DNA of 41,728 nucleotides from Rhodospira trueperi. GTDB lineage: Bacteria > Pseudomonadota > Alphaproteobacteria > Rhodospirillales > Rhodospirillaceae. This document shows, piece by piece, positions 4,452 to 34,141 of this stretch. The notes under the pieces were generated by a model that was given only the letters and a program-made list of their open reading frames with translations, was not told the origin of the DNA and ran no database searches. The stretch covers positions 1 through 41,728 of the forward strand of contig NZ_FNAP01000019.1 in assembly GCF_900101965.1 (NCBI RefSeq), given 5' to 3'. Both the position numbers and the translations under genes were made by a program. Within the stretch, counting starts at the first letter, position 1. Each line of letters begins with the position of its first letter.

Positions 4452-4480
4452 GGGAATAACCTCCTCCGCAAGGGCGTGTC

Positions 4481-5635: not shown

Positions 5636-5660
5636 GACCGGTCCCTTTCCTTCGTCCGTA

Positions 5661-18035: not shown

Positions 18036-20444
18036 ATGTCTGTCCGGCAGGCAAAACAGGGGGCGATGATGGTGCGTTTCAGCCTAAAGATGCGCATGAG
18101 TTTGATCACGGTGGGAATGGTCCTGGCGTCGCTGACCTTGGCGTCCGGGACAGCCTTGGTGTTCACCCGCGCCGCTTTGCACGACAATGCCCTTGAGGTG
18201 TCGCGCCAGTCCGCAGAAACAGGTGTGACCACCATAGATCACATCTTGGGAGAAGCCTTGACCGTGGCGCGCGGCAACGCGATGGCACAAGAAACGTTAC
18301 GCGCCGCCAACCAAACGGAGCGGGCCCTATATGACGCCTTGATGCGTGACCTGTTGACGGGACACCCCGACCTGCTGGGTGTCTGGAGCGGCTGGGAACC
18401 CAATGCGTTGGATGGACAGGACGCCGCCTTCGCCGGAACCGAAGGTCATGATGCCAGTGGACGGTACATGTCCTATTGGTATCGTGACGCAGGTCGCATC
18501 GACCGCACGGTTTTGTTGGATTACGAAACACCCGGTGTCGGCGATTACTATCTCCGTCCACGTGATGATAATCGCGAAGTCGTCCTTGAGCCCTATTTCT
18601 ATCCTATTGCCGGGGAAGACACGCTTATCACCTCCCTTGCTCTGCCAATCCGTCATAAAGGTGCCGTTGTCGGCGTCGCTGGCGTCGATATTTCCTTGGG
18701 CGCTCTACAAAAACAACTTTCTACGTTGCGTCCCATGGAAACCGGGTGGGTCACGCTGATCACCGACCAGGGCACAATCGTCGCCGACCGCAATCCGGCC
18801 ATGCTGGGGAAAAATGCCGCCGACGCCGGATACGGCGATGACGCGCTGGCCACAATTACGCACGCACAGCCTTTTGAAAACGAAAATGCCACGGCATTGG
18901 ATGGAACGCCCTTGTTGCGGGTGGTCCTGCCGGTTTCCCTGGGAGAGACAGACTCGACCTGGGCCGTGGTCACCAACATTCCGCGCGCCACGGCGCTGGC
19001 TGCGGTCAATGAAATCACCTGGACCCTGATCGTGCTGGCGTTGATCGTGGCCGCCGTATCGGTTGCACTGTCCTGGTTCTTTGCCCTTCGGATCAGCACA
19101 CCGATCGTCTCCATCACAGACATCATGAAACGCTTGGCCTCCGGCGATCTGACGGTGACCGTGCCCGACACCCATCGTAAGGACGAGATCGGCGCTATGG
19201 CCGCCGCAGTCGAGGTTTTCAGGGAAAACAGCAAGAAAATCGAGGGCATGCAATCCGAGCAGGAGGCTGCGCATCGCCGCAACGCTCGCCGCGTGCAAAC
19301 CGAAATGTTCGCCCTGACCAACGCGCTCGAACAAGAAGTGCACAGCGCCATCGATATCGTGCATCGGCAATCCACCACGATGCAGAAGGTCGCCAACGAT
19401 ATGGCCCAGGCCGTCAAGCATACCGAGATGGGCGCGGAAGCGGCCTCAGCGGCATCGCAAGCCTCCTCCTCCAGTGTCGACGCCGTGGCCGCGGCCGCTG
19501 AGGAAATGGCCGCGTCCATCAGTGAAATTAGCCGTCAGGTCGTCGGCGCCACGCAGATCGCCAACCGGGCCTCGCAGCAAGCCGAGGGCACCAACGCCCA
19601 TATCGAAGGCCTGGCCGATGTCGCCAACAAGATCGGCGAAGTGGTCAACCTGATCAGCGACATCGCCAAGCAAACGAACCTGTTGGCGCTCAACGCCACC
19701 ATTGAGGCGGCGCGGGCCGGCGACGCGGGCAAGGGCTTTGCCGTGGTCGCCAACGAGGTCAAGACGCTGGCCAACCAGACCGCCAAGGCTACCGAGGACA
19801 TCGCCACCCAGATCGGCGACATGCAGGCCGCCACCCGGGATGCGGTGGACGCCATCAAGGGCATCGTCGCCGTCATTGGCGAGATCAACGAGATCACCGT
19901 CACGGTGTCCTCGGCGGTGGAGGAACAGACGGCGGCCACCGGCGAAATCAGCGAGAACGCCCAGCATGCTGCGGAAAGCACCCAGAATGCCTCCGACAAC
20001 ATCGCGGCGGTCACCTCCAACGCCGTTGACACCGGGCAGCACGCCGGGGCGGTGCAGCAAGCCGCCGGAGACGTCCTCGAACGGGTCCAGGCGATGCAAC
20101 GATCACTGGAACGGATCATCCGCGCCGGCAGCGCCGAAGACCGCGAGGCCAACGCCCTGCATACCGTCAACATCGCGGTGACCGTGGATATGGGAACCGG
20201 CACCCTTCAGGCCGGCTTGCTGCAGGATGCCGCTCTCAGCGGGGTGGGCACCCTGGATCGCTCCATCTCCGGCGAACGCGGCCAAACTTTCCTTATGGAT
20301 ATTCCCGACGTCGGCCGCCTGAACGGGATCATCGTCGCCACCACCGCCCAGGCCACTCACATCCGCTTGGACATGACCGATAGCGAAGCCCGAACGTTCA
20401 AGTCGTTCGTTGATCGGCGGCTTCACAAATCGACAAAGATGTGA
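18036..20444 (+). CDS. Transmembrane chemoreceptor, dCache sensor, PilZ-like tail
   Basis: 802 residues. Order: TM1 (~22-44), a periplasmic two-module Cache sensor (~45-325, with YMSYWYR and [10 protein letters not shown], then GVAGVDISL), TM2 (~328-352), HAMP (~353-405), coiled coil and signalling hairpin with tip [17 protein letters not shown] (~546-562), then a C-terminal ~100-residue domain. The last part resembles PilZ by position and by DAALSGVG, but it lacks RxxxR and has Ala for Ser in the DxSxxG motif, so c-di-GMP binding is doubtful. The sensor ligand cannot be named. An ATG at 18066 with AGGGGG upstream is an alternative start. It may feed the downstream CheA. Confidence 0.9.
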
Positions 20445-20599
20445 TGCGGACGACCAAAGAGAACTGGCCGCCGGGGACATATGGACAGGGCGATCCGTGG
20501 ATCGTCTGCCTGAGACCGGCGTAGATGCCGAGACAGGAGGAGAGACGACCGCGCCGGCCCCTTTGACCAAGCGGCCCCGCAGAGCGGGGCCGTGACGCG
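20445..20599. other. Post-receptor spacer with hairpins
   Basis: No gene is seen. CGATCC-GT-GGATCG (20493-20506) and a strong CGGCCCCGC-AGA-GCGGGGCCG hairpin (20572-20592) lie here. The latter has no T-run, and it abuts the IS3 remnant that follows, so it may be an end structure of that former element or a factor-dependent terminator for the receptor. Confidence 0.35.
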
Positions 20600-20710
20600 C
20601 CGCCTTTCAACGCGAAAGTGGCCCTTGCGGCGATCAAAGGCGAGAAGACGCTGGCCGAATTGGCGCAGCAGTTCAACGTCCACCCGAACCAGATCACGGC
20701 GTGGCGCAGC
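20600..20710 (+). pseudogene. IS3-family OrfA transposase remnant
   Basis: In frame with GTG 20618 the sequence reads PPFNAKVALAAIKGEKT, then LAELAQQFNVHPNQITAWR. This is the helix-turn-helix start of IS3-family OrfA, normally preceded by RRRF and followed by KxxLLE. The match breaks off after ITAWR and continues into unrelated sequence (SPVANNAAIGEG), so only about 37 codons remain. It lies between two chemoreceptor genes. Confidence 0.75.
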
Positions 20711-20761
20711 CCGGTAGCGAACAACGCCGCAATCGGGGAAGGTGTGCCAAACTGTCATGCA

Positions 20762-20799
20762 GAACAATTGGTGCGGGTCCGCTCCAATTGTTCCTTTTT
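20762..20799 (+). terminator. Strong Rho-independent terminator
   Basis: GAACAATTGG (20762-20771) pairs with CCAATTGTTC (20784-20793). The loop itself folds as GCGG-GT-CCGC, and CTTTTT follows at 20794-20799. It separates the first receptor and IS3 remnant from the chemosensory operon, which therefore needs its own promoter between 20800 and 21035. Confidence 0.85.
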
Positions 20800-21035
20800 C
20801 CGGCTCTTGCGGCATTGAATGGCTGCCATGCGACGACCGATATTTAATGACTCCAAGACCCAAAACCGCCATCATGTTCGCGGGCATCCGGGGCATCCTG
20901 TCGTTTTCGATCCTTCATGCGAAGTGCCACGGAACGCCATGCCTGCGAGGAGGCATGGTCTGTGGACTGTGTGACCTGTGCGGATCGAAAATGCTCAGCC
21001 TTGCCCTTTTTCTTCGTTCATAAGGAGAAGCGGTT
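20800..21035 (+). promoter_or_regulatory. Promoter and leader of the chemosensory operon
   Basis: No gene is seen. The region is less GC-rich than the flanks. It has a hairpin CCATGCCT-GCGAGG-AGGCATGG at 20937-20958, and a clean ribosome-binding site AAGGAG 8 nt before the ATG at 21036. I could not place -35/-10 boxes confidently. Confidence 0.4.
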
Positions 21036-23000
21036 ATGGCGTTGCGGAAACAGGCTTCTGGGGCGGACACAGACCATGCCCCCCGGGACTCCTTGGCACA
21101 GATCGCACCAAACGCTTCAAACGCCTTAGCCGGGCGCGATCAAGCGCGGGCCAATAAGGACGCCGACGCCAAGCGCCGCCAGGCCCGGACCCTCGCCCGC
21201 CAACAGCAGGCGGCCGAGAAGATCGCGTCCGCCTCAACAGAGCTGCTCGCCGGTCTGAACGAACAATCCGGCGCCGCCACGGAACTGCGCGCCAGCATGG
21301 AGCAGATCGCTTCCGGCGCGGAGGAGGCCAGCAGCGCCGCCCAGGAAAGCCTGAGCGCCGTCACCCAGATCTCGGCCAGCCTGGACGAGCAGGGCCGCAC
21401 CTCTGAGTCCGCCCGGACCAAGACCGTCCAGCTACAGGACCTGATCGGATCGGTCGCGGACGAAGTCGGGGCCATGGTTGATAATGTCAGCGCGGCCAGC
21501 GACCGTCAGAATCAGTCCGTCAAGATCATTGCCCAGTTGGAAACCCGCGCTCAGGAAGTGAACGAGGCCGTCAGTTCGGTGATTCGCATCGCCGATCAGA
21601 CCAGCCTGCTGGCCCTGAACGCGGCCATCGAGGCGGCCCGGGCCGGCCAGCACGGCAAGGGCTTCGCCGTGGTCGCCGATGCGGTGCGGACCCTGGCCGA
21701 GAACTCGGAAAAGAACGCTGGCAACATCCAGGACCAGATCGGCCGCATTCAGGAGAATGTGAAGACCGTCACGGAGGGCATCACCCGCTCGGCCGACATC
21801 GCGGCGAAGGAGGCGGAAAAGGGGCAGGAGGTCATCGGCCAACTGTCCACGGTCCGCGCGGAGATGGAGACCCTCAAGGAGGGTGCCGACGCCATCAGCG
21901 CGGTGGCGTCCGATTCAGCCGAAGCGTCCATGGAAGCGCAGAAGGGCTCTGAGACGATCGCCTCGGCCGCCGAAGAACAGTCGGCGGCCTGCGAGGAGTC
22001 CCTGAAGGCCCTGGAGGAACAGACCCAGGCCCTGGATGCCTGCGTTCAGGCGGCGGAGGCGCTGGAGGCCCTGGCCGAGGACCTGAAGAATTCGTCCAAC
22101 ATCACCAAGAGCGCCGAGGACGTCGCCAGCAGCGCCGAGGAATTGTCCTCGACCGTGGAGGAAATGAGCAAGTCGGCCTCGATGATCCAGACGGCCCTGG
22201 GCCAGATCAATAACGGCGCGTCGCAGGCGGCAAGCGCGTCGGAGCAGTCGTCGCGCGTACTGACCCGTGTGCGCGATTCCGCTGTCCAGACCAATGATCG
22301 TGCCCAGCAGGCCACCGACATCGGCCAGCGCGTCATCGCCGCGTTGTCCGAGAACAAGGCCAGCGTCGATGGCATGATCAATACGATCAACGAGGCGCTG
22401 GAGGACGGGCGCAAGAACCTCGCCACCATGAGGGAGATGGAGGAGATCAGCCAGCGCATCGACAAGGTGGTGGACAGCATCTCCAACGTCGCCATCCAGA
22501 CCAGCATGCTGGCCGTCACCGGCGCGGTCGAGGCTGCCCGGGCCGGCGAGTTCGGCAAGGGCTTCGCGGTGGTCTCCACCGATATCGAGAACCTAGCCAA
22601 CGAAGCCATGGAGAACGCCGAACAGATCAAGGACATGGTCAAGGCCATCCAGATCCAGATCCAGACCGTGCGCACCGACCTTCAGTCCATTACCGATGAT
22701 TCCCTGCAGGAGGTGGAGAAGGCCAAGGCCACCACTAACGCCCTGGTGACCATCGGCCAGGATGCCGAGACGGTGATGCGCGGCAACCAGGAGATCCAGA
22801 AGGCCTCCGCCGAAATCGCCACGGCCGTCGAACAGGCCCTGAAGGGGTCGGAGCAGATCGCCGCCGCCGCCGAACAGGCGCTCAAGAGCTCGGAGCAGGC
22901 CAGCACCGCCGCCAAACAGCAGTCCCAGGGCGCCGACGAGTTGGCCGCCGCGATCGAGGAGATCGCCTCCATCGCCGACGAACTCCAGAGCAATTCATGA
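21036..23000 (+). CDS. Soluble chemoreceptor with two tandem signalling domains
   Basis: 654 residues with no transmembrane segment, no HAMP and no recognisable sensor domain. Two complete MCP signalling hairpins follow one another. Tip one is at ~187-213 ([18 protein letters not shown], then HGKGFAVV); tip two is at ~487-513 ([18 protein letters not shown], then FGKGFAVV), exactly 300 residues later. The second tip departs from the consensus (AVTGAV for ALNAAI). The N-terminal ~60 residues are polar and basic ([17 protein letters not shown]). First gene of the operon, so it is probably the scaffold of a cytoplasmic array. Signal input is unknown; it may come from a partner such as the HEAT or STAS protein. 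Confidence 0.92.
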
Positions 23001-23067
23001 CCGCCGCCCGGAACCCCGCCCAAGGCATGGGGCGATGTTTCGTTGAGGCTTGGATGTGGAGGCGATC

Positions 23068-24792
23068 ATGACCCAGGCTGCCGAAGCCATCGACGTTGCG
23101 TCTGAACGGACGGACGATGGCGAACGCGGACAGTACGTGAACTTCACGATTGACGCGGAATGCTTCGCGTTTCCGATGCAAACGGTCCAGGAAATCATTC
23201 GCGTGCCGGAGACGGTGGCCGTTCCCCTGACAAGCCGCAGTCTCATGGGGCTCGCCAACCTGCGCGGATCCGTCATCCCCGTGCTCAGCCTGCGCGGCCT
23301 GTTGGGCCTGACCGAAAAAGAGGCCACCGACGCCAGCCGGGTCTTGGTCATCGACCATGGCCGTCCGGTCGGTCTTGTCGTGGATCGCGTCGCCAGCGTG
23401 ATGAATGTCGATCGGACGGATGTCGAGGACGCGACCAACATCAAGACCACGCTTGACACCGATGTCCTGGCCGGCGCCGTCAAGAACCAGCAGGGATGGG
23501 ACCTTGTGCTGCTGCTGGATGCGTCCAAGGTTCTGGACGGTGAGTTCGGCGCCATCGCGGCCTCGTCCGAGGCCGCGAACGACACCGGTTCGGCCCGCAA
23601 GGCCGAGGATCGCGGCGACGAGGACGCCGCCGACGACAGCACCCGGCAACTGGTCAGCTTCCTGGTGGACGGCCAGGAGTACGCCTTCCCGATTGCCCGG
23701 GTCGAGGAGATCGTGCGGGTGCCCGACAGCATCAGCCAGGTCCCGAACGCGGATCAGGACGTGTTCGGCCTGATCAATCTCCGTCAGCGACTGCTGCCCC
23801 TGCTCGGCCTGCGGCGTATGTTCGGGCTGGCGGATACCGAACTCGGCGAGGATACCCGTATCGTGGTCGTTCGATTGTCGGCGACCCAGACCGTGGGAAT
23901 GATCGTCGACAAGGTGCGCGAGGTTCTGCGTGTCCGACAGGCCGATTTGGATGAGGTGCCGCCGCTTCTCTTCCAGGGTGGCACGGACGGGGAGTTCGAG
24001 GCGGTCTGCCGTCTGGATGAGGGAAAGCGGTTGGTCTCCATCCTGTCGGTCGAGGCCATGTTTCATCACCCGGCCGTGCAGCAGGGACTGGCTCAGACGC
24101 AGACGCAGACGCAGACGGGAGACACGGCGGTGATCGAAGCCGACGACGCGGCCGACCAAGCCGCGGGGGCAACGCAGGACGACATCCAGTTGGTCGTCTT
24201 CCGGTTGGCCGAGGAAGAATACGGCGTCGAGATCAACTCGGTGCAGGAGATCATTCGCCTGCCCGATCAGTTCAGCAAGGTCCCCAAGACGGCCGCCTTC
24301 ATCGACGGCATGGTCAACCTGCGCGGCGCCGTGTTGCCGGTGGTCGATCTGCGGGTTCGCCTGGGTATGGATCGCCGGGCCGACCGTGATGACCGACAAC
24401 GGATCATGGTTCTCAATCTGGGAGGGGCACAGACCGGGTTCGTGGTCGACTCCGTGTCTGAAGTGTTGCGGCTGCAAGGATCGGAGATCGAGGAGGCGCC
24501 AAGAATGTCGGCCGAGCAGGCCCGCATGATGGGGTCGGTCGCCAACCTGAAAAAGCAGGGCCGCATGATCCTGCTGATCGACCCGCGTTGCCTGCTGGAC
24601 AAGGGGGAGATCGAACACCTCCATCAGCTTGACAAGACGCCACCGCCCGCGCCGCCACCCGCGCCGGTGGTCCTTCCAACCCAGGCGTCACCCACGGCAG
24701 CTCCGGCCGATCCGGGTGGGCAGCAGACCCCGCCAGCCGACCCGGTCCGCAAAACGCCTGTTGAGGACGATGCGGGTGGACGCACCAGCTAG
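23068..24792 (+). CDS. Triple CheW-domain coupling protein
   Basis: 574 residues carrying three CheW domains, roughly residues 21-158, 193-336 and 372-512, each with the FPMQTVQEIIRVP-type strand and the NLR turn (NLRG, NLRQ, NLRG). CheW couples receptors to CheA. The domains are joined by acidic linkers; the second linker contains QTQTQTQT, and the C-terminal ~55 residues are Pro/Ala-rich and disordered-looking. I start at ATG 23068, because GGAGG lies 5 nt upstream; a TTG at 23050 is in frame but lacks such a site. Ordinary CheW is ~160 residues with one domain. Domain 2 has Q for the turn glycine. Confidence 0.92.
   Translation: MTQAAEAIDVASERTDDGERGQYVNFTIDAECFAFPMQTVQEIIRVPETVAVPLTSRSLMGLANLRGSVIPVLSLRGLLGLTEKEATDASRVLVIDHGRPVGLVVDRVASVMNVDRTDVEDATNIKTTLDTDVLAGAVKNQQGWDLVLLLDASKVLDGEFGAIAASSEAANDTGSARKAEDRGDEDAADDSTRQLVSFLVDGQEYAFPIARVEEIVRVPDSISQVPNADQDVFGLINLRQRLLPLLGLRRMFGLADTELGEDTRIVVVRLSATQTVGMIVDKVREVLRVRQADLDEVPPLLFQGGTDGEFEAVCRLDEGKRLVSILSVEAMFHHPAVQQGLAQTQTQTQTGDTAVIEADDAADQAAGATQDDIQLVVFRLAEEEYGVEINSVQEIIRLPDQFSKVPKTAAFIDGMVNLRGAVLPVVDLRVRLGMDRRADRDDRQRIMVLNLGGAQTGFVVDSVSEVLRLQGSEIEEAPRMSAEQARMMGSVANLKKQGRMILLIDPRCLLDKGEIEHLHQLDKTPPPAPPPAPVVLPTQASPTAAPADPGGQQTPPADPVRKTPVEDDAGGRTS
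24094..24117 (+). repeat. CAGACG x4 microsatellite inside the triple-CheW gene
   Basis: Four perfect tandem CAGACG units encode QTQTQTQT in the linker between CheW domains 2 and 3. The unit is six bases, so slippage would change linker length by two residues without shifting frame. Confidence 0.85.
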
Positions 24793-24806
24793 AACCGGTT
24801 GAGCCC

Positions 24807-25895
24807 ATGAAAGTCCTGGTGATTGAAGACTCTGCCCTGATGCGGCGGGAACTCCGGAAGATCCTAGGCAAAATCCCGGATGCCGAAGTCCAGACCGCCC
24901 GCAATGGAGCGGACGGTCTGGAAGAGATCGAGAAGTTCGACCCCGACGTCGTGACCCTGGACATCAACATGCCGGTCATGGACGGGCTGACCTGCCTCAG
25001 CCACATCATGACGCGCTTCCCGCGTCCCGTGGTGATGGTGTCGTCCCTGACCGAAAAGGGCGCGCTGGCGACCTTCGAAGCCTTGGAGATGGGTGCCGTG
25101 GACTACATCCCGAAGCCAGACGGCACGGTGTCGCTGAATGCCCAGGTCATGGAACGGGAGTTGATCGCCAAGATCCACGCCGCCATGCGCTCACGTCCGG
25201 CCAGAAACCGGGCGCCGTCCGCGTTGATGCGCCGCACGGCCACGACCCTGACTCGTCGTCGATCCGCCCCGGCGACGCGACCGGCCCCGACCGTTGCCCG
25301 CCAACGGGCCGAGGGATTGATCCTGATCGGGTCATCGACCGGTGGCCCGTCGGTGGTCGAGGACATCATCCGCTCGTTGCCTCTGGATCTGCCGTGGCCC
25401 ATCGTCGTCGCCCAGCACATGCCGCCGCAGTTCACCAACACCTACGCCCGGCGCATGAACGACGTCTGCGACCTGACCGTCATCGAGGTTGATCGGCCGC
25501 GCGCGGTGGAACCCGGCACCGTCTACATCGGACGCGGCGGCAGCGACGTCGTCCTGACCCGTCGCGCCGGTCGCCTAACGGTCCTGTCGATGCCGCCTGA
25601 CGCATCAGTACCATGGCACCCCAGCGTTGATCGCATGGTGGATACGGCCCTTGAGCATGTCGATCCCGCCAACATGGTCGGCGTTCTGCTGACGGGCATG
25701 GGCGACGACGGCGCGCGGGCCATGACCGACCTGAAAGGCCGGGGCGGCCGAACCATCGCCGAGTCCGAGGAAACGGCCATCGTCTACGGTATGCCCGCCG
25801 AACTGGTCGCTCAGGGCGGCGCCACCGAAGTCCTGCCCAATCCTCGCATCGCCCGCCGTGTGCGGGACTGGTGCATGACCCGGGCGTCATTCTGA
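24807..25895 (+). CDS. cheB: Chemoreceptor methylesterase/deamidase
   Basis: 362 residues. CheB removes methyl groups from receptor glutamates and is activated by phosphorylation. The REC domain (1-~125) has acidic pocket E7/D8, phospho-acceptor D52 (TLDINMPVMDG), S80 and K103 (IPKPDG). After an Arg/Thr/Ala-rich linker (~130-168) the esterase domain shows the Ser loop GSSTGGPS (~175-182), H204 (VAQHMPPQFT) and D301 (LLTGMGDDGA). It follows the triple-CheW gene by 14 bp. Confidence 0.95.
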   Translation: MKVLVIEDSALMRRELRKILGKIPDAEVQTARNGADGLEEIEKFDPDVVTLDINMPVMDGLTCLSHIMTRFPRPVVMVSSLTEKGALATFEALEMGAVDYIPKPDGTVSLNAQVMERELIAKIHAAMRSRPARNRAPSALMRRTATTLTRRRSAPATRPAPTVARQRAEGLILIGSSTGGPSVVEDIIRSLPLDLPWPIVVAQHMPPQFTNTYARRMNDVCDLTVIEVDRPRAVEPGTVYIGRGGSDVVLTRRAGRLTVLSMPPDASVPWHPSVDRMVDTALEHVDPANMVGVLLTGMGDDGARAMTDLKGRGGRTIAESEETAIVYGMPAELVAQGGATEVLPNPRIARRVRDWCMTRASF

Positions 25896-25921
25896 CCGCC
25901 GGCCTGACTGGAGGAGATCGC

Positions 25922-26590
25922 ATGCCCCTCAGCCGAACGGACAGCGGCCAAGCGCCCGGCGCGGAGGCGCCCGAGAGCATCGGCACCGTCGATCAGGCCC
26001 GCGAGCACCTGGGCGATTCGGACTCCAACGCGCGGCGCCGCGCGGCCAGGGCGTTTGTCGATTTCGGGGGGGACCCGGCGGTGCTGTGTCGCCGTCTCGA
26101 AGACGAGGACAACCTCGCCGTGATCGAGTTGGCCATGACGGCCCTTGTGGACGCCGCGACGGGCTCGGACGGTGACTCCGCCGCCCGACGGGACACGGTC
26201 GAGGCGCTGATTTCCCTGATGCGGTCAAAGAATGCTTCGGTTCGGGTGCAGACGGTCTCGGCGCTTCAACAGGTGCCGGACGAGACCGCCGCGTTCGTGC
26301 CGGCTCTGATGTCCGATCCCGACCCCAACGTCCGCATCTTGACGGCCAACCTGCTGCAAGACTTCGCCCATCCCGACACCCACGCATGGTTGCGCGCCCT
26401 CCTGCGCACGGACACGCATGTCAACGTCTGCATGGCGGCGGTGGAAGCCCTCGCCGAAACGGGCACGCCGGACATGGTGGAGGACCTTGATCGATTGGTG
26501 GACCGGTTTCCCGACCAGCCCTTCGTCGCGGCCGCTGTTGCCCAGGTGCGCCGCCTGATCGAAGGGAGGTCCGAGCCTGATGGATCATGA
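25922..26590 (+). CDS. HEAT-repeat protein in chemosensory operon
   Basis: 222 residues, mostly alpha-helical. After a polar ~25-residue start it shows successive HEAT/PBS-lyase-type repeats, for example ARRRAARAFVDFGGDP, VRVQTVSALQQVPDE, VRILTANLLQDFAHP and VCMAAVEALAETGTP. Such repeats form a curved protein-binding surface with no catalytic activity. GGAGGAG lies 5 nt before ATG 25922. Its end overlaps cheR by 11 bp. Placement between cheB and cheR suggests an adaptor for receptor adaptation enzymes or for the soluble receptor. The partner is not known from the sequence. Confidence 0.82.
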   Translation: MPLSRTDSGQAPGAEAPESIGTVDQAREHLGDSDSNARRRAARAFVDFGGDPAVLCRRLEDEDNLAVIELAMTALVDAATGSDGDSAARRDTVEALISLMRSKNASVRVQTVSALQQVPDETAAFVPALMSDPDPNVRILTANLLQDFAHPDTHAWLRALLRTDTHVNVCMAAVEALAETGTPDMVEDLDRLVDRFPDQPFVAAAVAQVRRLIEGRSEPDGS

Positions 26591-27440
26591 TGCCCGGCCT
26601 ACTGCAGACATCCACCTTTCGGACGTGGACTTTGAGCGGTTCCAGGAGTTCTTTTATCGGAAAACGGGAATCCAGTTCGGAGAGAACAAACGCTATTTCG
26701 TAGACCGGCGCGTCGCGCAAAGGATGCACGAAACGGGGAGTACGACGTTCCGATCCTACCTCACCTTCGTGAAGTTCGAAGTCGGTCAGCACGAGTTCCA
26801 GCGCCTCGTCGACATCATGACCGTGAATGAAACCTATTTCTACCGGGAGGCCTTTCAGTTTGATTGCATGGTCCAGGACGTACTTGGGGAGTGCCTTGTC
26901 AATCGCAGGGGTCATGGTCCCCTGCGCATCTGGTCCATGCCCTGTTCGACGGGCGAAGAGATCTATTCCATCGCGCTCTATCTGCTGGAGCGCTGGCCGA
27001 AACTCAGGGAGATAGACGTGGAGTTGGTCGGTGCCGACATCAACGAAACGGCCCTGCTGCAGGCGCGCCGGGGACTCTACGGGCCACGCGCGGTGCAGAA
27101 CCTGCCGGCGTCCATCCTGAATCGCTATTTCACCCCGAAGGACGGCGAAACGCTTGAAATTAAGCAGGACATTCGGGATGCCGTGGACTTCGTGCTCTGT
27201 AATATATGCGACAAATTTATACCTCCTACACTGTCAAATTTTGATATCGTCTTCTGCCGCAACATGTTGATTTATTTTGACACCCTGTCACAAAAAAGGG
27301 CTGTCGAGAATATTTTCTCTGCGCTGCGCCCTGGGGGGTTTCTGTTTCTGGGGCATTCCGAGTCCATGAGCCGGGTTTCGTCCGTTTTCACGGTGCGGAC
27401 GTTCGCCGATTCCCTTGCCTATCAACGTCCGCTGTCCTGA
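26580..27440 (+). CDS. cheR: Chemoreceptor methyltransferase
   Basis: 286 residues. SAM-dependent methylation of receptor glutamates, opposing CheB. An N-terminal helical domain (~10-85) precedes TVNETYFYRE and the Rossmann core with SMPCSTGEEIYSIA, GADIN and FCRNMLIYF. GGGAGG lies ~9 nt before ATG 26580. An AT-rich patch (about 27195-27320) with A/T-ending codons covers the FCRNMLIYF motif and stands out from the GC-rich surroundings. No frameshift is present and the protein looks intact. Confidence 0.95.
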   Translation: MDHDARPTADIHLSDVDFERFQEFFYRKTGIQFGENKRYFVDRRVAQRMHETGSTTFRSYLTFVKFEVGQHEFQRLVDIMTVNETYFYREAFQFDCMVQDVLGECLVNRRGHGPLRIWSMPCSTGEEIYSIALYLLERWPKLREIDVELVGADINETALLQARRGLYGPRAVQNLPASILNRYFTPKDGETLEIKQDIRDAVDFVLCNICDKFIPPTLSNFDIVFCRNMLIYFDTLSQKRAVENIFSALRPGGFLFLGHSESMSRVSSVFTVRTFADSLAYQRPLS

Positions 27441-27461
27441 GGCGGCCTGGAGGAGACGATC

Positions 27462-27842
27462 ATGGCGAAACCCCGGGTCCTGATCATTGACGATGCCGCG
27501 ACGGTGCGCGCCTTCCACCGACACCTACTGGAAGGCATGGACCTTGAGGTGGACGAGGCGGTGAACGGTGTGGAGGGTCTGGAAAAGGCCCTCCGCCAGC
27601 CCTTTGACCTGTGGCTTGTAGACGTCAACATGCCCACCATGGATGGGATCCGATTCCTGTTCATGGCGCGCCAGAATGACCGCATCCGGGACGTGCCGGC
27701 GATCATGATCACCACGGAATCCGAACTTCGCGACAAGACCCAGGCACTGGAGAACGGAGCCAATCTCTTCCTCGTCAAACCGGTGGATCCCGACGTGTTT
27801 CGAAGCCGCGTCGCTGTCATGTTGGGACGGAGGGCCGCATGA
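27462..27842 (+). CDS. CheY-like response regulator
   Basis: 126 residues, a single REC domain. The acidic pocket is D10/D11, phospho-acceptor D54 (LVDVNMP), the switch threonine lies in ITTES (~84) and K106 is in LVKPVD. GGAGGAGA precedes ATG 27462 and cheR ends 21 bp upstream. It overlaps cheA by four bases (ATGA). It is the likely output or a phosphate sink for the adjacent CheA. Confidence 0.93.
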   Translation: MAKPRVLIIDDAATVRAFHRHLLEGMDLEVDEAVNGVEGLEKALRQPFDLWLVDVNMPTMDGIRFLFMARQNDRIRDVPAIMITTESELRDKTQALENGANLFLVKPVDPDVFRSRVAVMLGRRAA

Positions 27843-30526
27843 CCTCGCTTCTGACCCGATTCATCAGCGAAGCGCGGGGGCTGCTGGAGCAAGCCTCGGC
27901 CGATCTGCTGGCGCTGGAAAAGGCACCGGACGACCAGGAGGTTCTCAACAGCCTGTTCCGCTGCATGCATACCCTCAAGGGGTCGTCGGGCGTGGTCGAG
28001 GGACTGGACCCGCTGACCCGCGCCGTTCATGCCGGCGAGGATCTGCTGGATGACTGCCGGGGGGGTAAGCTCTCGTTTTCCGCCAATCTCGCGGATCCGC
28101 TGTTCGACACTGTGGATCTGGTGGGGGAGTGGCTGGATGCCCTTGGCGACACCGGCGCGTTGCCGGACGACGCCGGCCGGGTCGGCGCCGCGCTCGCGAA
28201 CACCCTGCGCGGATTGCGCGCCGACAGCCCGGAGGCGGCGGCGGCCGATACACCCGCGCCAGTCGCGTCGGCCGATCACTGCGACTGGCTTCGGCTGGTT
28301 GATCATGGCGTCCGCCGCGACATGTATATCGCGCTGAGCGCGCCCGACGCCGCGCTGATCGCGTTCGAATACGTCCCGGATCCGCAGTGCTTCTTCGTCG
28401 GTGACGACCCGCTGTTGACGGCGCGGACCGCGCCCGATCTGGTGTGGCGCGGCGTCGAGCCGGCGAAACCCTGGGACGATGATCTCGCGGCATTCGACCC
28501 GTTTGCCTGCAATCTCCGCATGCGCGGCCTTGGCACCGCGTCGCTCGATGCCTACGACCGGCATTTCGCCTATGTCATCAACGACGTGCGCCTGCTCCCG
28601 GTGGCCCGGGCGGAGTTGGTGACCCTGGACGGGCCGGTGGCCGGCGCCAAGGTGTTCGAGCCCTTCTCGGAGGATGCGAGGGGCCTCGTGAAGGCCGCCG
28701 ACTGGGACGGGCTGCGAGCGGCCGTGGCGACGATGCGCAGTGTCGCCGGCGGAACGGACGGGTTCGAGGGCCAGGCCCTGGACTGGCTCGACCTGGTTCT
28801 GAACAGCGGGCCCATCGATCCCGCCCTGGTGAACCGTCTGGTGATGGCCATCGCCACCGGGCGCGACGAGGGGGGCGAGACCGGTCCCGCGCCGATGCAC
28901 CCGTCCACCGACACGCCGGCCGGTCCACCAGGGGAACCGCGCCCGGCTCCGGCGCTGGATCCGACCACCGCCGCCGCCGCCGATATCCTGATGGCTCAGT
29001 TGGAGGCGCTGGCGATGCCCATGCCGCCGGACCAGCGCCTAGCCCAGTTGCCGTCCCGTAAGGAGACCCTCGTGCGGGTCCTGACCGCCCTGGACAACAT
29101 GGAGGCGGTGGAAAAGCTGACAGCGATTGTTCACCAGGCGCGACGCGAGGAGGATGCGGTCCTGCTGGCCGAGGTGGCGCGGGACATGCTGATGGATCTC
29201 GGCGTGCTCGAACCGGACGCTGAGACCGCCAGCGTCGCCCCCGCCAACGTTCCATCCGGGGGGGCGCCGACCGCCCGCAAGCCGGCCGAGGCGCCGTCAA
29301 CCGCCGACCGGCGCGGTCGTAGCACGAAGCCGAAACTGCGGGAAATCAAGGTCGACCAGGAGCGCATCGACAGTTTGATGGATCTCGCCGGCGAATTGGT
29401 GGTGGCCAAGAACGCGCTGCCGTTCCTGGCCCGCCGGGCGGACGTCGAGTTCGGCGTGCGCGATCTGGCGCGCGAAATCAAGGGACAGCACCAGACCCTC
29501 AACCGCATCGTCGAGGACCTCCAGGGCGCCGTCATGCAAGTGCGCATGGTGCCCGTCTCGGCCGTGTTCGGCGCCTTCCCGCGCTTGGTGCGCGACTACG
29601 CCCGCAAGCTGGACAAGAAGATCCGCCTGGTGGTCGAGGGCGAGGATACCGAAGCCGACAAGAACGTGATCGAGGACCTGTCGGACCCCCTGATCCACCT
29701 GATCCGCAACAGCATCGACCACGGCCTGGAACCGGCCGACGAACGCGTTGCGGCGGGGAAGTCCGAGGAAGGCACCATTGAACTGCGCGCCTATCAGGAA
29801 GAAGACCGCGTGGTGATCGAGGTCAACGACGACGGTCGCGGCATCGACGCGGACAAGCTGAAGGCCAAGGCCATCGAGAAGGGCGTCATCACCGCCGAGG
29901 CGGCCGCCGACCTGTCGGAGACCGACGCCCTCAATCTCATCTTCGCCCCTGGCTTCTCCACCGCCGAGAAGGTCTCGGACCTGTCCGGGCGGGGCGTGGG
30001 CATGGATGTGGTCCGGGTGGCGCTGGAACGGGCCGGGGGGACCATCAAGGTGTCCAGCACGCTTGGTCAGGGGACCCGGGTCCGTCTCAGCCTGCCGCTC
30101 GCCATGGCCATCAGCCGCGTGATGATGACCACGCTGGCCGATCAGCCGTTCGGCATTCCCATGGATTATGTGGTCGAAACCGTGCGGATCCGCCGCTCCG
30201 ATATCCACCACATCAAGGACCGCGAAGCCACCGTTCTGCGGGGACGGGTGGTGCCCTTGCGGCGCTTGCGCTCCCTGCTTGGCATCGAAACGGTCATCGA
30301 CGTGTGGGATAGCGGCGGCGTCCTGGAAGAGGCCGTTCTGGTGGTCAACGACGGGTCAGGTCACACGGGCTTGGTGGTCGATGACTTCGAGGAGAACGTC
30401 GAGGTCATCCTCAAGCCCATGGAAGGGATCATGGCCCGCTTCGGTCACTACTCTGGCACGGCGCTGCTGGGGGATGGACGGGTCCTCCTCGTGCTCAACC
30501 TGCGGGAAATCCTGAAATGGCCCTAG
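27839..30526 (+). CDS. cheA: Chemotaxis histidine kinase CheA, large variant
   Basis: 895 residues. Order: one HPt domain (1-~105) with phospho-accepting H44 (MHTLKGSSG); an uncommon ~135-residue region (~145-280, starting DWLRLVDHGVRRDMYIAL) that I cannot assign; low-complexity linkers; a second helical segment (~380-460); the dimerisation helices (IKVDQERIDSLMDLAGEL, ~501-518); the ATPase with N-box LIHLIRNSIDHGLE, G1 NDDGRGID and G2 GRGVGMDVVR; and a C-terminal CheW-like regulatory domain (~745-893). No typical P2 CheY-binding domain is recognisable. The unassigned region may replace it. Overlaps cheY before and the STAS gene after. Confidence 0.95.
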   Translation: MTSLLTRFISEARGLLEQASADLLALEKAPDDQEVLNSLFRCMHTLKGSSGVVEGLDPLTRAVHAGEDLLDDCRGGKLSFSANLADPLFDTVDLVGEWLDALGDTGALPDDAGRVGAALANTLRGLRADSPEAAAADTPAPVASADHCDWLRLVDHGVRRDMYIALSAPDAALIAFEYVPDPQCFFVGDDPLLTARTAPDLVWRGVEPAKPWDDDLAAFDPFACNLRMRGLGTASLDAYDRHFAYVINDVRLLPVARAELVTLDGPVAGAKVFEPFSEDARGLVKAADWDGLRAAVATMRSVAGGTDGFEGQALDWLDLVLNSGPIDPALVNRLVMAIATGRDEGGETGPAPMHPSTDTPAGPPGEPRPAPALDPTTAAAADILMAQLEALAMPMPPDQRLAQLPSRKETLVRVLTALDNMEAVEKLTAIVHQARREEDAVLLAEVARDMLMDLGVLEPDAETASVAPANVPSGGAPTARKPAEAPSTADRRGRSTKPKLREIKVDQERIDSLMDLAGELVVAKNALPFLARRADVEFGVRDLAREIKGQHQTLNRIVEDLQGAVMQVRMVPVSAVFGAFPRLVRDYARKLDKKIRLVVEGEDTEADKNVIEDLSDPLIHLIRNSIDHGLEPADERVAAGKSEEGTIELRAYQEEDRVVIEVNDDGRGIDADKLKAKAIEKGVITAEAAADLSETDALNLIFAPGFSTAEKVSDLSGRGVGMDVVRVALERAGGTIKVSSTLGQGTRVRLSLPLAMAISRVMMTTLADQPFGIPMDYVVETVRIRRSDIHHIKDREATVLRGRVVPLRRLRSLLGIETVIDVWDSGGVLEEAVLVVNDGSGHTGLVVDDFEENVEVILKPMEGIMARFGHYSGTALLGDGRVLLVLNLREILKWP

Positions 30527-30753
30527 ACCTGAAAAAGACCGTGGCCAACCTTTCCGGCACTGTCACGGTGCAGGAGGCGGAACCGCTTCTGGAATGGCTG
30601 CAAGCCACGCCGAAGGGCAAGCTGAACCTTGCCGACTGCGAGCATCTTCACGCGGCTGTGCTCCAGGTGATCCTGCGCACCGGGGCAACGATCCAGAAGG
30701 AACCAACCGATCCGGACCTGACGACATGGCTGAAGAGCGCGGGCGCGTTATGA
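30517..30753 (+). CDS. Small STAS-like protein
   Basis: 78 residues, overlapping cheA by 10 bp and the ParA gene by 4. The pattern (LSGTVTVQEAEPLLEWLQ, KGKLNLADCEHLHAAVLQVIL) matches a shortened STAS domain of the SpoIIAA type, where L.DC..LH stands in for the usual strand and D-S/T-G loop. There is no serine at the usual phosphorylation place, since the loop reads ADCEHLH. STAS proteins act in partner switching or binding. Its role beside CheA is unknown; binding to the HEAT protein or CheA is conceivable. Confidence 0.7.
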   Translation: MALDLKKTVANLSGTVTVQEAEPLLEWLQATPKGKLNLADCEHLHAAVLQVILRTGATIQKEPTDPDLTTWLKSAGAL

Positions 30754-31577
30754 CGGCCTCGGACAAAGCCATCGTCGCCGTGGCAAACCGGAAAGGGGGG
30801 ACCGGCAAGACCACCACGACCGTCAATCTGTCCGTTGAGTGGGCGCGGCAAGGATGGCGCACGTTGGTGATCGACCTGGATTCTCAGGGGCACACCGGCC
30901 TGGGGCTGGGCGTGGACGGTGCGGCCAACCCGGCGGCGACGGTGCATCATCTGTTTCGAGACCCCGCTGTGCCCCTGGAAACCCTGTGTTCGCGGACGGA
31001 GGTGGAGGGGCTGACGGTCTGTCCGGCCGACCCCGGCTTCGATGGCCAGATCGCGGGCGCCGTCGATCCGTTCCTCCTCCGACGCTGCCTGGAACAGGCG
31101 GACGCGCCTCGCTTTGACCGCGTGGTGATCGACACGCCGCCAACCAGTGGTGCCGCGCTGCTCATCGCCTTCGTGGCGGCGACCGGCATTCTGGTCCCGT
31201 CGCCCCCGGACTTCCTCGCCGCCGAGGGCATCCGCCAGCTCAGCCAGCTCTTCTATACGGTGGCCACCCGCCACAACCCGGACCTGACCCGCTTCGCCAT
31301 CCTGCCGGTCATGCATGACCCGCGTTTGCGCATGCATAGGACCGTGATGCAGGATCTGGAGCGGCAGTTCGGACGAACGCGGATGCTGCGCGGTATTCGA
31401 ACGGACATCAAACTGGCCGAGGCGTTCGGTGCCGGACAACCGATCCAGGTGTTCAACCGCCGCAGCCGGGGTGGTCTGGACTATCACCTGCTGGCCGAGG
31501 AACTTGACGCCGCCTGGTCCTGGGCGCCCGCCATAAAGAAGGATGCTGTTCATGAAATCGGTTCTCCTGGTCGATGA
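30750..31577 (+). CDS. ParA/MinD-family ATPase of the chemosensory operon
   Basis: 275 residues. The deviant Walker A NRKGGTGKTTTT (K15 signature lysine, K20), the A' motif RVVIDTPP and the switch region PSPPDFLAAEGIRQL are all present. ParA ATPases bind DNA non-specifically and position cargo. Related ParA proteins encoded in chemosensory operons (PpfA in Rhodobacter sphaeroides, ParC in Vibrio) segregate chemoreceptor arrays at division. I start at ATG 30750, which overlaps the STAS stop; ATG 30726 is in frame but lacks a ribosome-binding site. No ParB or parS is seen. The basic N-terminus of the soluble receptor is a candidate activator. Confidence 0.9.
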   Translation: MTASDKAIVAVANRKGGTGKTTTTVNLSVEWARQGWRTLVIDLDSQGHTGLGLGVDGAANPAATVHHLFRDPAVPLETLCSRTEVEGLTVCPADPGFDGQIAGAVDPFLLRRCLEQADAPRFDRVVIDTPPTSGAALLIAFVAATGILVPSPPDFLAAEGIRQLSQLFYTVATRHNPDLTRFAILPVMHDPRLRMHRTVMQDLERQFGRTRMLRGIRTDIKLAEAFGAGQPIQVFNRRSRGGLDYHLLAEELDAAWSWAPAIKKDAVHEIGSPGR

Positions 31578-31920
31578 CTCCGACACGATCCGGGCCAGTG
31601 TTTCGGATATCCTGACCCGCAACGGCCTGAAGGCCGAAACCGCCAAGGATGGCAAGGACGCGCTTGGGAAGCTAAACGGGTTCAAGGCTGATCTGATCAT
31701 CACCGACCTCAACATGCCGGTCATGGACGGCCTGGCGCTGATCAAGGAGATCCGGAAGCTGCCTGCATACCGCTTCACGCCGGTGCTGATGCTGACGACC
31801 GAATCGCAACAGGCCAAACGGGATGAGGCCCGCGCCGCCGGCGCGACCGGTTGGCTGGTCAAGCCGGTCAAGCCCGATGACCTGATGGCCGTGGTGCGAA
31901 AAGTGGTGCCCGGGGCATGA
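31552..31920 (+). CDS. CheY-like response regulator (second)
   Basis: 122 residues, single REC domain with D8/D9, phospho-acceptor D52 (ITDLNMPVMDG), TTES switch and K in WLVKPVKP. It is closer to motility-type CheY than the first, which has VDVNMPTMDG. I prefer ATG 31552 (AAGGA 8 nt upstream) to ATG 31543. It overlaps the ParA gene by 26 bp and the next gene by four bases. Two CheY proteins in one operon suggest one output and one sink or a second target. Confidence 0.93.
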   Translation: MKSVLLVDDSDTIRASVSDILTRNGLKAETAKDGKDALGKLNGFKADLIITDLNMPVMDGLALIKEIRKLPAYRFTPVLMLTTESQQAKRDEARAAGATGWLVKPVKPDDLMAVVRKVVPGA

Positions 31921-33212
31921 CGACTCGCGATGCCCTCAACGGCGGAGCCGGCCTCCGGGTTTCCGTCGGCGCGATCCTGGCCGCCGTGGCCGGTCTGGTG
32001 TTGCAGGTTCTGGCGGTCCTCGCCGCGTCATCCTGGATGGCTTGGCTGTCCCTGCCGGCGACAGCCCTGATCGCGGGCGCGGTATGGATGGCCGCGCGAC
32101 ACCAGGAGCGGGCCGGTGATCCGGCAGAGAGCCTGACAACCGGGAGCGCTGCCGGGGGGATCGCGCCTCGTGTCGGGAATGCGGGCCCTTCTCCCGTGGA
32201 CGCCGTCCGTCCGCCGGTTGAGACCCAGGATCCTCCGCGTGGGATCATTACCGACCTGACGGGCTTCGAGGAATTCCGCCGTATCATCTCGACGCATATC
32301 GACCGGATCAACGGCAACACCGATACCGCCGCGATGGACATCCTTGCGGATCTTCGCGCCATTGAGACGGAGGTCAACGATCTGCTGGCTCACCTGCAGA
32401 ACACCGATGCGACCCATTCCGTTGAGGACGTTCTGCGCAAGACAGAGCAACAAGCCGCCGCCAACCGCGACGACATTGCCCGTTTCCAGGACAAGGAGAG
32501 CGAGCTCAATCACATGGCGGAGCGCCGCGTCGAGGAGATCAGGTCCGAGGTGTCCAGCCTGGACACGCATCTCGAGGGCATCCGGGGCATTGCTCAGTCA
32601 ACCCGCATGCTGTCGATCAATGCGGCCATCGAGGCCACGCGGGCCGGTGAACGCGGTGCGGGGTTCAATGTCATCGCATCCGAAGTCCGCGAGCTCGCCC
32701 ATCGCTCGGCGGATTTGGCCAAGGCCATCTCCGAGGGCCTGCGCACGCTGGAATCCCAGTTGGATGCGTCGTTCCGCGACATCGTGTTTGATCGGATCGC
32801 GACCGAACAGGCGATGCTGGATACCCTCAGCGAGGGCATTACGGACCTGACCGCGACCCTGGAGGACCTGATCGCCCACCAACGGGAAACCCTGCTGACG
32901 GCCCAGCAAAAAGGCGAGCGTCTCGCGCCCAGCGTGGTCAACCTGATCGGATCCATCCAGTTCCAGGACATCACCCGCCAGCAGCTCGAGAACGTCGGCA
33001 AGGGCGTGGTCGCGGTTGAAGGTCTGCTGGGCGACATCGCGACGGCCCTGGACCGCCCGGATCGCGGGCGCGCCTACGCCCCCCGGCTGCACACGGTTCT
33101 GGATACGATGTTCCATTCCTACGTCATGGAGGCGGAACGGGCGGCGCATCATGGCGGGACAGCCCTCTCGGACACCACCGTGGAGGATCCGCCGGCGATC
33201 GAACTGTTCTGA
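31917..33212 (+). CDS. Membrane MCP-like protein with CheZ-like DxxxQ motif
   Basis: 431 residues. Two hydrophobic helices (~16-38 and 42-60) with almost no periplasmic loop, a Pro-rich linker (~65-110), helices, then a short MCP-type hairpin with a divergent tip (STRMLSINAAIEATRAGERG, ~227-246). The later segment SIQFQDITRQQLENV (~345-359) matches the CheZ phosphatase active motif (D-x-x-x-Q within QDFQDLTGQ), and the protein ends PPAIELF, resembling the hydrophobic CheY-binding C-terminus of CheZ. I infer a CheY-P phosphatase embedded in a receptor-like scaffold. A degenerate receptor with no phosphatase activity is the alternative. Confidence 0.8.
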   Translation: MTTRDALNGGAGLRVSVGAILAAVAGLVLQVLAVLAASSWMAWLSLPATALIAGAVWMAARHQERAGDPAESLTTGSAAGGIAPRVGNAGPSPVDAVRPPVETQDPPRGIITDLTGFEEFRRIISTHIDRINGNTDTAAMDILADLRAIETEVNDLLAHLQNTDATHSVEDVLRKTEQQAAANRDDIARFQDKESELNHMAERRVEEIRSEVSSLDTHLEGIRGIAQSTRMLSINAAIEATRAGERGAGFNVIASEVRELAHRSADLAKAISEGLRTLESQLDASFRDIVFDRIATEQAMLDTLSEGITDLTATLEDLIAHQRETLLTAQQKGERLAPSVVNLIGSIQFQDITRQQLENVGKGVVAVEGLLGDIATALDRPDRGRAYAPRLHTVLDTMFHSYVMEAERAAHHGGTALSDTTVEDPPAIELF

Positions 33213-33246
33213 ACGCGGGTTCGGCGTACAGCGTGGACCAGAGGAA

Positions 33247-33282
33247 CTCGGTGCAAAGGGTATTGAATTGCCGAGCTTTTTT
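33247..33282 (+). terminator. Probable terminator of the chemosensory operon
   Basis: CTCGG (33247-33251) pairs with CCGAG (33271-33275), with two extra wobble pairs, followed by CTTTTTT (33276-33282). It lies 35 bp after the last stop. The stem is modest but the T-run is good. Confidence 0.6.
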
Positions 33283-33449
33283 CTGAGTTTCGCGCGGCGA
33301 AAAACCCCAGTGCACCTGTTGTTTCGTGAGAGAGCCTAAAAAACAGGAAAAACGGCAGCCATATTCTCTCTCGAGGAACTGATCCGAAGCATGCTGGTTG
33401 CTGTCGGCATTGTCTCTGGCATCAGTCTCGCCTTTAGGGCGCTTTCCGT
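33283..33449. other. Spacer before the IS630 remnant
   Basis: No gene is seen. The first half is AT-rich and the second half merges with former IS sequence, whose boundary I cannot place. Confidence 0.3.
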
Positions 33450-33923
33450 TCACTCTGGATCATACCCGGCCTTGACGAAGTCGTTGGCGCATTCGGCAGG
33501 GGATACGGCGTCGAGGGCTTCGGCGCCGTCATGCTCTCCAGCCGGAGCGCCGCGACCAGGGTGGTGGTTTTCCAGTGACCATGCGGGACCGCCGCCCGGC
33601 ACCGCTCTCCGCGCGGGGACCGGCCGTGGCGGCGGGCCGTGTCCAGATCGGGGTGCGCCTCGAACCAGGCGAGGTGCCGGCCCATTACGTCCTCGCGCCC
33701 CTGTTCGGCTGCGCGCGCCGTCTTTTCTTCAGTGTCAGGCCGTGACGCGCGAACAACCGCCACAGGGTGCTGGCCGCCGGCCGGACACCCGTCATGCACG
33801 GGCCCATCGGGTCGCGCTGGAGACGCTGACCCCAAACCGGGCCGCCGTCTGGCGTCGTGATGCTCCGTCTTCAACGGCACGGATAACCCGGACGCGGCCA
33901 TCCTCGGAAAGCGATCCCGCCAT
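33450..33923 (-). pseudogene. Decayed IS630-family transposase
   Basis: Three frames on the minus strand hold pieces of one transposase. The N-terminus reads MAGSLSEDGRVRVIRAVEDG then RRQTAARFGVSVSSATRW (start at 33923). Middle pieces include FARHGLTLKK and, further on, GERCRAAVPHGHWKTTTLVAALRL, and the C-terminus reads SPAECANDFVKAGYDPE with TGA at 33450-33452. The catalytic DET/DDE segments are missing: the middle jumps from PDLDTAR to RGRS..GERC, and the gene is under 480 bp instead of ~1 kb. Frameshifts and at least two deletions make it inactive. Confidence 0.85.
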
Positions 33924-34018
33924 GCCTGCTGGCCTCCTTCCCCCCCGCAGGACTCTTGAATCACATCCGCGCCGCCAGGGGAAACCCAGCCGAGTCAAAT
34001 CGTTTGGATTGCACTCTA

Positions 34019-34068
34019 GTGCAGCGACGCATTCAAGGGATTCCCCTAGAATGCAGACGTCGCTGCAC
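34019..34068. repeat. Compound hairpin, 11-bp outer arms
   Basis: GTGCAGCGACG (34019-34029) pairs with CGTCGCTGCAC (34058-34068). Inside it CATTC (34030-34034) pairs with GAATG (34049-34053), then GGG with CCC. It is between the IS630 remnant and the next hairpin. It may be an end structure of a small mobile element. Confidence 0.55.
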
Positions 34069-34093
34069 AAAACATTGTTTCTCGTGCACTTTC

Positions 34094-34135
34094 GATCCAG
34101 ACAAAAGAATGCAGGCTGCATCTTTTGTCTGGATC
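34094..34135 (-). terminator. Near-perfect 42-bp palindrome, bidirectional terminator candidate
   Basis: GATCCAGACAAAAG plus ATGCAG pairs with CTGCAT plus CTTTTGTCTGGATC, interrupted by one bulged A. It begins six bases after the hemerythrin-REC stop and lies between two convergent transcripts, so blocking read-through from both sides is plausible. A T-run after the stem is lacking on the minus strand, so a miniature element end is an alternative. Confidence 0.5.
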
Positions 34136-34141
34136 AGTGTA

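Follow-up and report, generated by a model that had tools for sequence, protein, structure and literature searches.

Contig NZ_FNAP01000019.1 of Rhodospira trueperi (assembly GCF_900101965.1) was analysed over a stretch of 41,728 nucleotides, referred to here as the window. It contains a chemosensory operon of eleven genes, which are all encoded on the + strand between positions 21036 and 33212 (Table 1). The class to which this operon belongs and the possible function of its last protein, named MCPZ, are the subject of this work. A preliminary description made from the sequence had reported a same-strand set of eleven genes with overlaps or short gaps; a check of the open reading frames (ORFs) confirmed all genes and the span. 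The successive intergenic gaps are +49, +14, -25, -11, +21, -4, -10, -4, -35, and -4 bp. In the region 20400-34200, no sigma-70-like promoter was found (1.7 expected), and the number of terminators corresponds to background (10 found, 8.5 expected). It is therefore solely the spacing of the genes that argues for co-transcription.

The domain content listed in the preliminary description is backed by Pfam for every part except the STAS-like protein, whose own match stays below the threshold. Beyond MCPsignal, no further Pfam family was detected in the DosM-type receptor, and its hydropathy profile contains no hydrophobic segment. The phosphoacceptor Asp and the Lys of CheY1 are kept in 82 of 82 aligned relatives; Asp55 and Lys107 of CheY2 are kept in 81 of 81. 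Residues ~145-480 of CheA, which connect Hpt to the dimerisation domain, have no Pfam match and align with the corresponding region of the relatives' CheAs.

Table 1. Genes of the chemosensory operon and features of its flanks.
Feature	Position	Strand	Evidence
DosM-type soluble receptor, 654 aa, two MCP signalling domains, no transmembrane segment	21036..23000	+	Pfam MCPsignal, 2 stretches, E 3.8e-52; hydropathy
Triple CheW coupling protein (CheW3), 580 aa, TTG start	23050..24792	+	Pfam CheW, 3 stretches, E 1.5e-95; alignment with relatives
CheB, receiver and methylesterase	24807..25895	+	Pfam
HEAT-repeat protein; start near 25922 suggested by relatives	25871..26590	+	Pfam HEAT_2, E 5.2e-22; alignment
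CheR methyltransferase	26580..27440	+	Pfam
CheY1, single receiver domain, acidic pair, Asp54, Lys106	27462..27842	+	Pfam
CheA: Hpt, long middle region, H-kinase_dim, HATPase_c, CheW-like	27839..30526	+	Pfam; F9 CheA clade
STAS-like small protein, 78 aa	30517..30753	+	STAS_2 in 7/11 alignment members
ParA/Soj-type ATPase, KGGTGKT Walker A	30750..31577	+	Pfam AAA_31; solved ParA-family relatives; sequence
CheY2, single receiver domain, Asp55, Lys107	31543..31920	+	Pfam
MCPZ: membrane-anchored receptor-like protein, signalling hairpin, CheZ-like module QFQDITRQ, C-terminal IELF	31917..33212	+	Pfam MCPsignal; motif, alignment, hydropathy
Cytochrome bd oxidase subunits I and II, two ABC-transporter ORFs; low-oxygen respiration cluster	755-7256	-	flank scan
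dCache receptor with HAMP and MCP domain, ~590 bp upstream of operon	18036-20444	+	flank scan
Apparent remnant of IS3-type transposase in pre-operon gap	20604-20730	+	read by eye
Bacteriohemerythrin domain fused to receiver, just downstream of operon	34142-35017	-	flank scan

Assignment of the operon to class F9

Two protein architectures, DosM (a receptor that has two signalling domains) and a triple CheW in concatenated form, are unique to class F9 (PMC9321776), and a double-layered cytoplasmic array containing both was described in Vibrio cholerae (PMC7534058). The window displays this signature, namely a tandem-signalling-domain receptor without a sensory domain and three CheW stretches in one protein. 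A tree was calculated for the catalytic part of CheA, as the preliminary description had suggested. It is based on 34 F9 loci picked for spread, and the grouping is that of this tree and not of published class models. The window CheA and the 33 other CheAs linked to DosM/CheW3 (34 of 34) are located on one side of a branch with support 100/100; the 18 other CheAs, which include that of E. coli and the second CheA of the host genome, are located on the other side. Because DosM and triple CheW are both encoded and CheA groups with F9 CheAs, the operon is almost certainly an F9-class chemosensory operon. Filing it under ACF (alternative cellular functions) was considered and dropped because the F9 signature is present.

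The combination of genes had been thought to be possibly undescribed. This claim of novelty falls because the operon belongs to a known class, which is defined by DosM and triple CheW (PMC7534058, PMC9321776) and in whose loci HEAT and STAS-like proteins are standard. The preliminary description regarded an assignment of the gene order to a described class with known output as counter-evidence; this applies in part, in the form of the flagellation phenotypes of Rhodospirillum centenum Che2 (PMC2890560). F9 membership further supports the proposal of a self-contained pathway, which would operate with a cytoplasmic array.

A close known counterpart of the operon is cluster I of V. cholerae, an F9 cluster with DosM VC1403, triple CheW VC1402, CheA VC1397, and receptor VC1394 (PMC7534058). 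Both clusters have in common DosM, the concatenated triple CheW, and a gene for a membrane receptor inside the cluster. In contrast, HEAT, STAS, ParA, or a CheZ-like module are not named in the accessible description of cluster I, where VC1394, compared with the window by description only, is presented as a little-known receptor (PMC7534058). R. centenum Che2, which is assigned to class F9 as well (PMC7184735), resembles the window in possessing CheA, CheY, CheB, CheR, and a tripartite CheW, and in its alphaproteobacterial host. Its CheA is described as a receiver fusion, whereas the window CheA, again compared by description, lacks a receiver. Moreover, the output of Che2, lateral flagella synthesis, was demonstrated by mutants, whereas for the window the output is a prediction.

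Conservation of the gene order and of the accessory genes

A search with CheW3 kept the best 80 of 96 relatives. Together with the window and nine further loci, these gave 90 loci that were scored with profiles built from the window and its relatives, by which distant members may be missed. Eight loci in which CheB and CheR are not both visible and 17 in which CheA followed by CheY2 is not visible were excluded from the respective counts. This neighbourhood search, likewise proposed in the preliminary description, showed that CheB and CheR flank a HEAT gene in 80 of 82 loci, that a STAS-like gene sits between CheA and CheY2 in 73 of 73, and that ParA occurs downstream in 34 of the same 73; MCPZ or a CheZ-like protein follows downstream in 59 of them. 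Thus, judged by gene order, HEAT and STAS-like proteins are constant accessory parts of F9, and ParA is an optional one. The core order was seen in loci of four phyla, and L118 and L119, which belong to one genus outside the class of the window, contain all eleven genes in identical order. Chance clustering of the eleven genes is excluded because their order recurs across phyla.

In a set of 60 genomes, the HEAT protein was matched in nine including the host, and seven of the other eight carry the operon. Its order is common to these seven relatives, with L023 being cut by a contig end; ParA was not seen in L022 and L023, and L017 and L021 have a CheZ-like gene without MCPZ.

The STAS-like protein of the window matches STAS_2 with E 0.036, which is below the Pfam cut-off. 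Of the 11 STAS-like proteins in the alignment, 7 give a STAS_2 match with E values up to 1, the best being 4.7e-4. STAS anti-sigma antagonists carry a phosphorylatable Ser or Thr. A candidate for this position directly follows the invariant His45; 9 of the 11 members have Thr or Ser there, whereas the window protein and L120 have Ala. The ParA protein contains a deviant Walker A motif (RKGGTGKTTT) and is assigned to its family by AAA_31 (E 1.7e-28) and by solved structures, i.e. a ParA family protein (E 2.5e-32) and Soj (E 8.6e-24). ParC of Vibrio and PpfA of R. sphaeroides are ATPases of the ParA type that position chemotaxis arrays. Judged by their descriptions, these resemble the window ParA in being ParA-family ATPases encoded inside a che cluster; the window differs in that the cluster includes a HEAT protein and ParA is optional. 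There is an even chance that ParA helps to place or partition the array, and it might do so together with HEAT.

A HEAT-ParA pair also occurs, within the stretches covered, without other F9 genes in L025 (7071-9497) and in L024 (2205-4027), the latter being a short contig; both genomes contain the operon in addition. The gene next to the pair in L025 reads CheZ-type, with FQDITGQ. This hints at a more general cooperation of HEAT-ParA with phosphatases or arrays. It is improbable that HEAT, STAS-like protein, and ParA are passengers rather than array parts. The lack of visible ParA in 39 of 73 testable loci is in agreement with such a role, but HEAT and STAS-like genes occupy fixed places in nearly all testable loci of several phyla, and the HEAT-ParA pair recurs on its own, in L025 near the CheZ-type gene. 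In the literature searched, as far as accessible, neither roles of HEAT, STAS, ParA, and MCPZ in F9 nor HEAT, STAS, and ParA as F9 parts were found; the primary DosM paper (PNAS 2016) or the gene-order supplement of PMC9321776 may list them, and the words HEAT, ParA, and STAS are absent from the main text of PMC9321776.

A CheZ-like module in MCPZ

In the phosphatase CheZ, an Asp and a Gln are catalytic and the C-terminal tail binds CheY. MCPZ has a hydrophobic segment at residues 10-53 and the tip of a receptor hairpin near residue 235. At residues 348-355, a predicted helix contains QFQDITRQ, which places an Asp and a Gln four residues apart, and the protein ends with PPAIELF. Counted over ORFs with 100 aa or more, and including the four duplicate loci L017, L018, L020, and L022, Q[FY]QD is held by 51 of 63 ORFs assigned to MCPZ and by 16 of 16 assigned to the CheZ-like protein; an IELF-like C-terminal pattern occurs in 50 of the former and 10 of the latter. 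Only five of all other scanned ORFs possess an IELF-like end. All five are located in F9 loci; four contain the motif, and the fifth, which belongs to L121, is an ordinary receptor. When 32 diverse MCPZ members were aligned (mean column identity 28%), receptor-tip residues, Q348, Q350, D351, L430, and F431 proved to be invariant. The C-terminal LF is thus retained throughout a set for which the tail was not a selection criterion.

Unguided alignment of profiles placed QFQDITRQ of MCPZ on DFQDLTGQ of CheZ over 65 columns with a pairwise E of 0.0025. The profile of the separate CheZ-like proteins aligned with CheZ in the same register (E 0.0076); reversed controls gave E values of 0.12 and 0.27. 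The modules of MCPZ and of the CheZ-like proteins are clearly homologous (E 5e-24). Pfam CheZ matched 7 of the 32 MCPZ members, with a best E of 3e-4. Canonical CheZ (PF04344) and MCPZ both have a D-x-x-x-Q pattern located on a helix, and both end in a short tail. Most CheZ references contain a motif of the QDFQDLTGQ type and end with DDLLSSLGF or similar, compared to QFQDITRQ and IELF in MCPZ. Unlike canonical CheZ, to which it has no significant overall match, MCPZ combines the module with a receptor hairpin and a membrane anchor in one polypeptide.

The Gln residue was compared between loci with and without a visible separate CheZ-like gene. For loci without a visible gene of this kind, the Gln four positions after the Asp is present in 44 of 44 MCPZ proteins with the strict motif. 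Five variants without the strict motif (L032, L059, L068, L084, L107) keep D-x-x-x-Q when inspected by eye, which gives a total of 49 of 49. This count omits the four duplicate loci, and six poor matches with scores of 29-80 and without IELF tail (L025, L054, L085, L088, L089, L097) were left out as not being true MCPZ. For loci with a separate CheZ-like gene, the Gln of MCPZ is replaced in six of eight cases (five times by Arg, once by His) and kept in L035 and L087; for example, MCPZ of L098 reads D-x-x-x-R. The separate CheZ-like protein keeps the Gln in 11 of 11 aligned sequences, three of which duplicate seeds that had been picked with a pattern containing Gln. In a midpoint-rooted tree of MCPZ (70 rows, with a long-branch warning), the CheZ-like genes form one clade inside, and seven MCPZs of the VVK type, six of them without Gln, form another. 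This looks like a duplication followed by a division of labour between MCPZ and the CheZ-like protein in one lineage.

Further arrangements of MCPZ-like genes were observed. Novosphingobium loci L055, L067, and L069 contain two MCPZ-like genes each, every one following its own CheY2-like gene. In L121, a permuted F9 locus (1946-3817 and 13867-14340, both on the - strand), a 157-aa protein with QFQDATRQ and the end IDLF occurs together with a transmembrane receptor ending with IELF. The MCPZ-like proteins of two plasmid-borne loci, L148 and L149, end with IELF and hold QFQDIVRQ and QYQDVFKQ.

We propose that MCPZ is probably a receptor-borne CheY phosphatase, a function that in the accessible literature searched was not found for an F9 receptor. 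Several observations weigh against this proposal. The hhalign probability against CheZ is just 12% for MCPZ and 5% for the CheZ-like protein, and the CheZ references had been pulled, from 18 of 20 loci, with a pattern containing the motif. Pfam CheZ matches neither the window MCPZ nor any of 11 separate CheZ-like proteins, and coiled-coil proteins give spurious matches of similar size, for example a hemagglutinin with E 0.0012. AlphaFold models of MCPZ (mean pLDDT 77, pTM 0.45) and of a CheZ-like relative (pLDDT 76, pTM 0.43) consist of long helices and a low-confidence tail with IELF. CheZ is not among the fold-search matches listed for these moderate-confidence models, which are receptors and other coiled coils for MCPZ and long helices only for the CheZ-like protein; therefore, no structural claim is made for MCPZ. 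The invariance of Q350 and D351 is partly due to selection because the 32 aligned members were drawn from a list pre-filtered for [FY]Q[DE]. Binding of CheY by the tail is not a necessary conclusion, since the L121 receptor ends with IELF but lacks the motif. The Gln losses represent one or few events because all six lie in one clade. Finally, the profiles detect neither MCPZ nor a CheZ-like protein in 14 of 73 loci, and a pattern search of these gave no convincing substitute. Homology of MCPZ to CheZ is thus suggestive only, and MCPZ is not filed as a CheZ member because a significant Pfam CheZ match is missing; the claim is that it would work like CheZ.

The same data could be explained if MCPZ were an ordinary short receptor, in which FQD arose by chance in a coiled coil or makes contact with the array, and in which IELF tethers CheR or CheB as the C-terminal pentapeptide does in other receptors. 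We regard this explanation as rather doubtful. MCPZ does keep the receptor tip, its two plasmid relatives are annotated as MCP, the L121 receptor combines an IELF tail with the lack of the motif, and VC1394 has been treated as a receptor of McpA-like topology (PMC7534058). However, CheZ-like proteins still carry tail and motif although they lack a receptor hairpin, decay of the Gln is confined to loci where a second copy exists, and the profile alignment is in register with CheZ. We consider it slightly favoured that F9 carries its own signal terminator as a membrane-anchored receptor-phosphatase, a form that did not appear in the literature searched. One lineage would have derived a separate CheZ-like enzyme from it, with loss of the catalytic Gln from the receptor copy.

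Distribution of F9 operons

Among the best 80 of 96 CheW3 relatives, loci occur in Alpha-, Beta-, and Gammaproteobacteria (the last with a short locus), in Thermodesulfobacteriota and Actinomycetota, and in an Eremiobacterota bin. At E 1e-40, 10 of 398 Pseudomonadota genomes, the host among them, contain CheW3; one of these, G351, does not display the F9 order. Two of six genomes of the host's genus, all drafts, contain an F9 CheA (G000, G003), and CheW3 was detected in three of 72,556 plasmid records. The distribution of F9 is sporadic. Full F9 clusters have been reported for 64 of 2781 species (PMC9321776). In the CheA tree, the window sequence is located beside those of L118, L119, Roseospira marina, Donghicola, and an alphaproteobacterial bin (98/92, with a long-branch warning there), and it falls outside the main Rhodospirillaceae F9 clade. 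This placement fits a gain of the operon by transfer. The F9 operons on plasmids from Methylosinus trichosporium (L148) and Eleftheria terrae (L149) fit spread by transfer as well.

Genomic context and output of the pathway

The flanks of the operon contain, besides transport or housekeeping genes, two genes for signalling proteins and a cluster for low-oxygen respiration (Table 1). Its two ABC-transporter ORFs are, by their position, presumably CydD/CydC-like. The hemerythrin-receiver protein is possibly an oxygen-linked response regulator. As a candidate partner of the operon it was checked in the other F9 loci searched, where its hemerythrin part had no match at E 1e-6.

The preliminary description had noted that no flagellar gene is nearby and that the output may be something other than flagellar rotation. 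Indeed, no flagellar family was found in the 20 flanking ORFs scanned, which are part of the ORFs of the window. The host genome encodes two CheAs and has one match of the FlhA type and three of the FliM/FliN type, and these flagellar-type genes are located away from the window. In R. centenum, an F9 system controls flagella biosynthesis (PMC7184735), and Che2 mutants, although still chemotactic, either are hyperflagellated or lack flagella (PMC2890560). Flagella synthesis is the sole F9 output seen in the accessible parts of the literature covered. Deletion of the F9 CheA of V. cholerae caused no detectable phenotype under standard conditions (PMC7534058), and the system I proteins of this organism move to the cell poles under oxygen limitation (PMC11940527).

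The output is probably not direct motor control, in line with the earlier suggestion. It appears very unlikely that the operon is the host's steering pathway, whose CheYs would control flagellar rotation as in standard chemotaxis. The flagellar-type genes in the host genome and the complete phosphorylation sites of both CheYs would suit such a pathway, and flagellar genes occur in 97% of F9 species (PMC9321776). However, the second CheA of the host clusters with the CheAs of five congeners, four of which show no F9 CheA in their draft genomes, and R. centenum Che2 mutants remain chemotactic (PMC2890560).

A proposed signalling scheme for F9

The sequence itself establishes which parts are present, how they are ordered, and which sites are conserved. 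Based on the described class, DosM rods would bridge two base plates of CheA and CheW3 to form a two-layer cytoplasmic array, to which other receptors would provide the signal. CheA would phosphorylate CheY1, CheY2, and CheB, and the receptors would be tuned by CheR and CheB for adaptation. MCPZ, being membrane-anchored, could dock on the base plate by its receptor hairpin and would dephosphorylate CheY at or near the array; its flexible IELF tail may recruit a substrate or partner. We assign a probability of roughly 80% to the explanation as a whole, i.e. an F9 operon with this scheme including a receptor-borne CheY phosphatase.

The array architecture of F9 is striking, and its role in V. 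cholerae, where the array was solved, is unclear in the accessible description (PMC7534058). With the assignment of the operon to a known class, the remaining interest is in the accessory set, above all in the idea of a receptor-phosphatase. The parts list of HEAT, STAS-like protein, optional ParA, and MCPZ, combined with a likely phosphatase, leads to a testable signalling scheme for F9. MCPZ itself changes from a presumed receptor to a candidate enzyme, for which two catalytic residues can be predicted. If this is true, CheY dephosphorylation sits on a component of the array, and what was supposed to be a receptor of the F9 cluster would be its off-switch.

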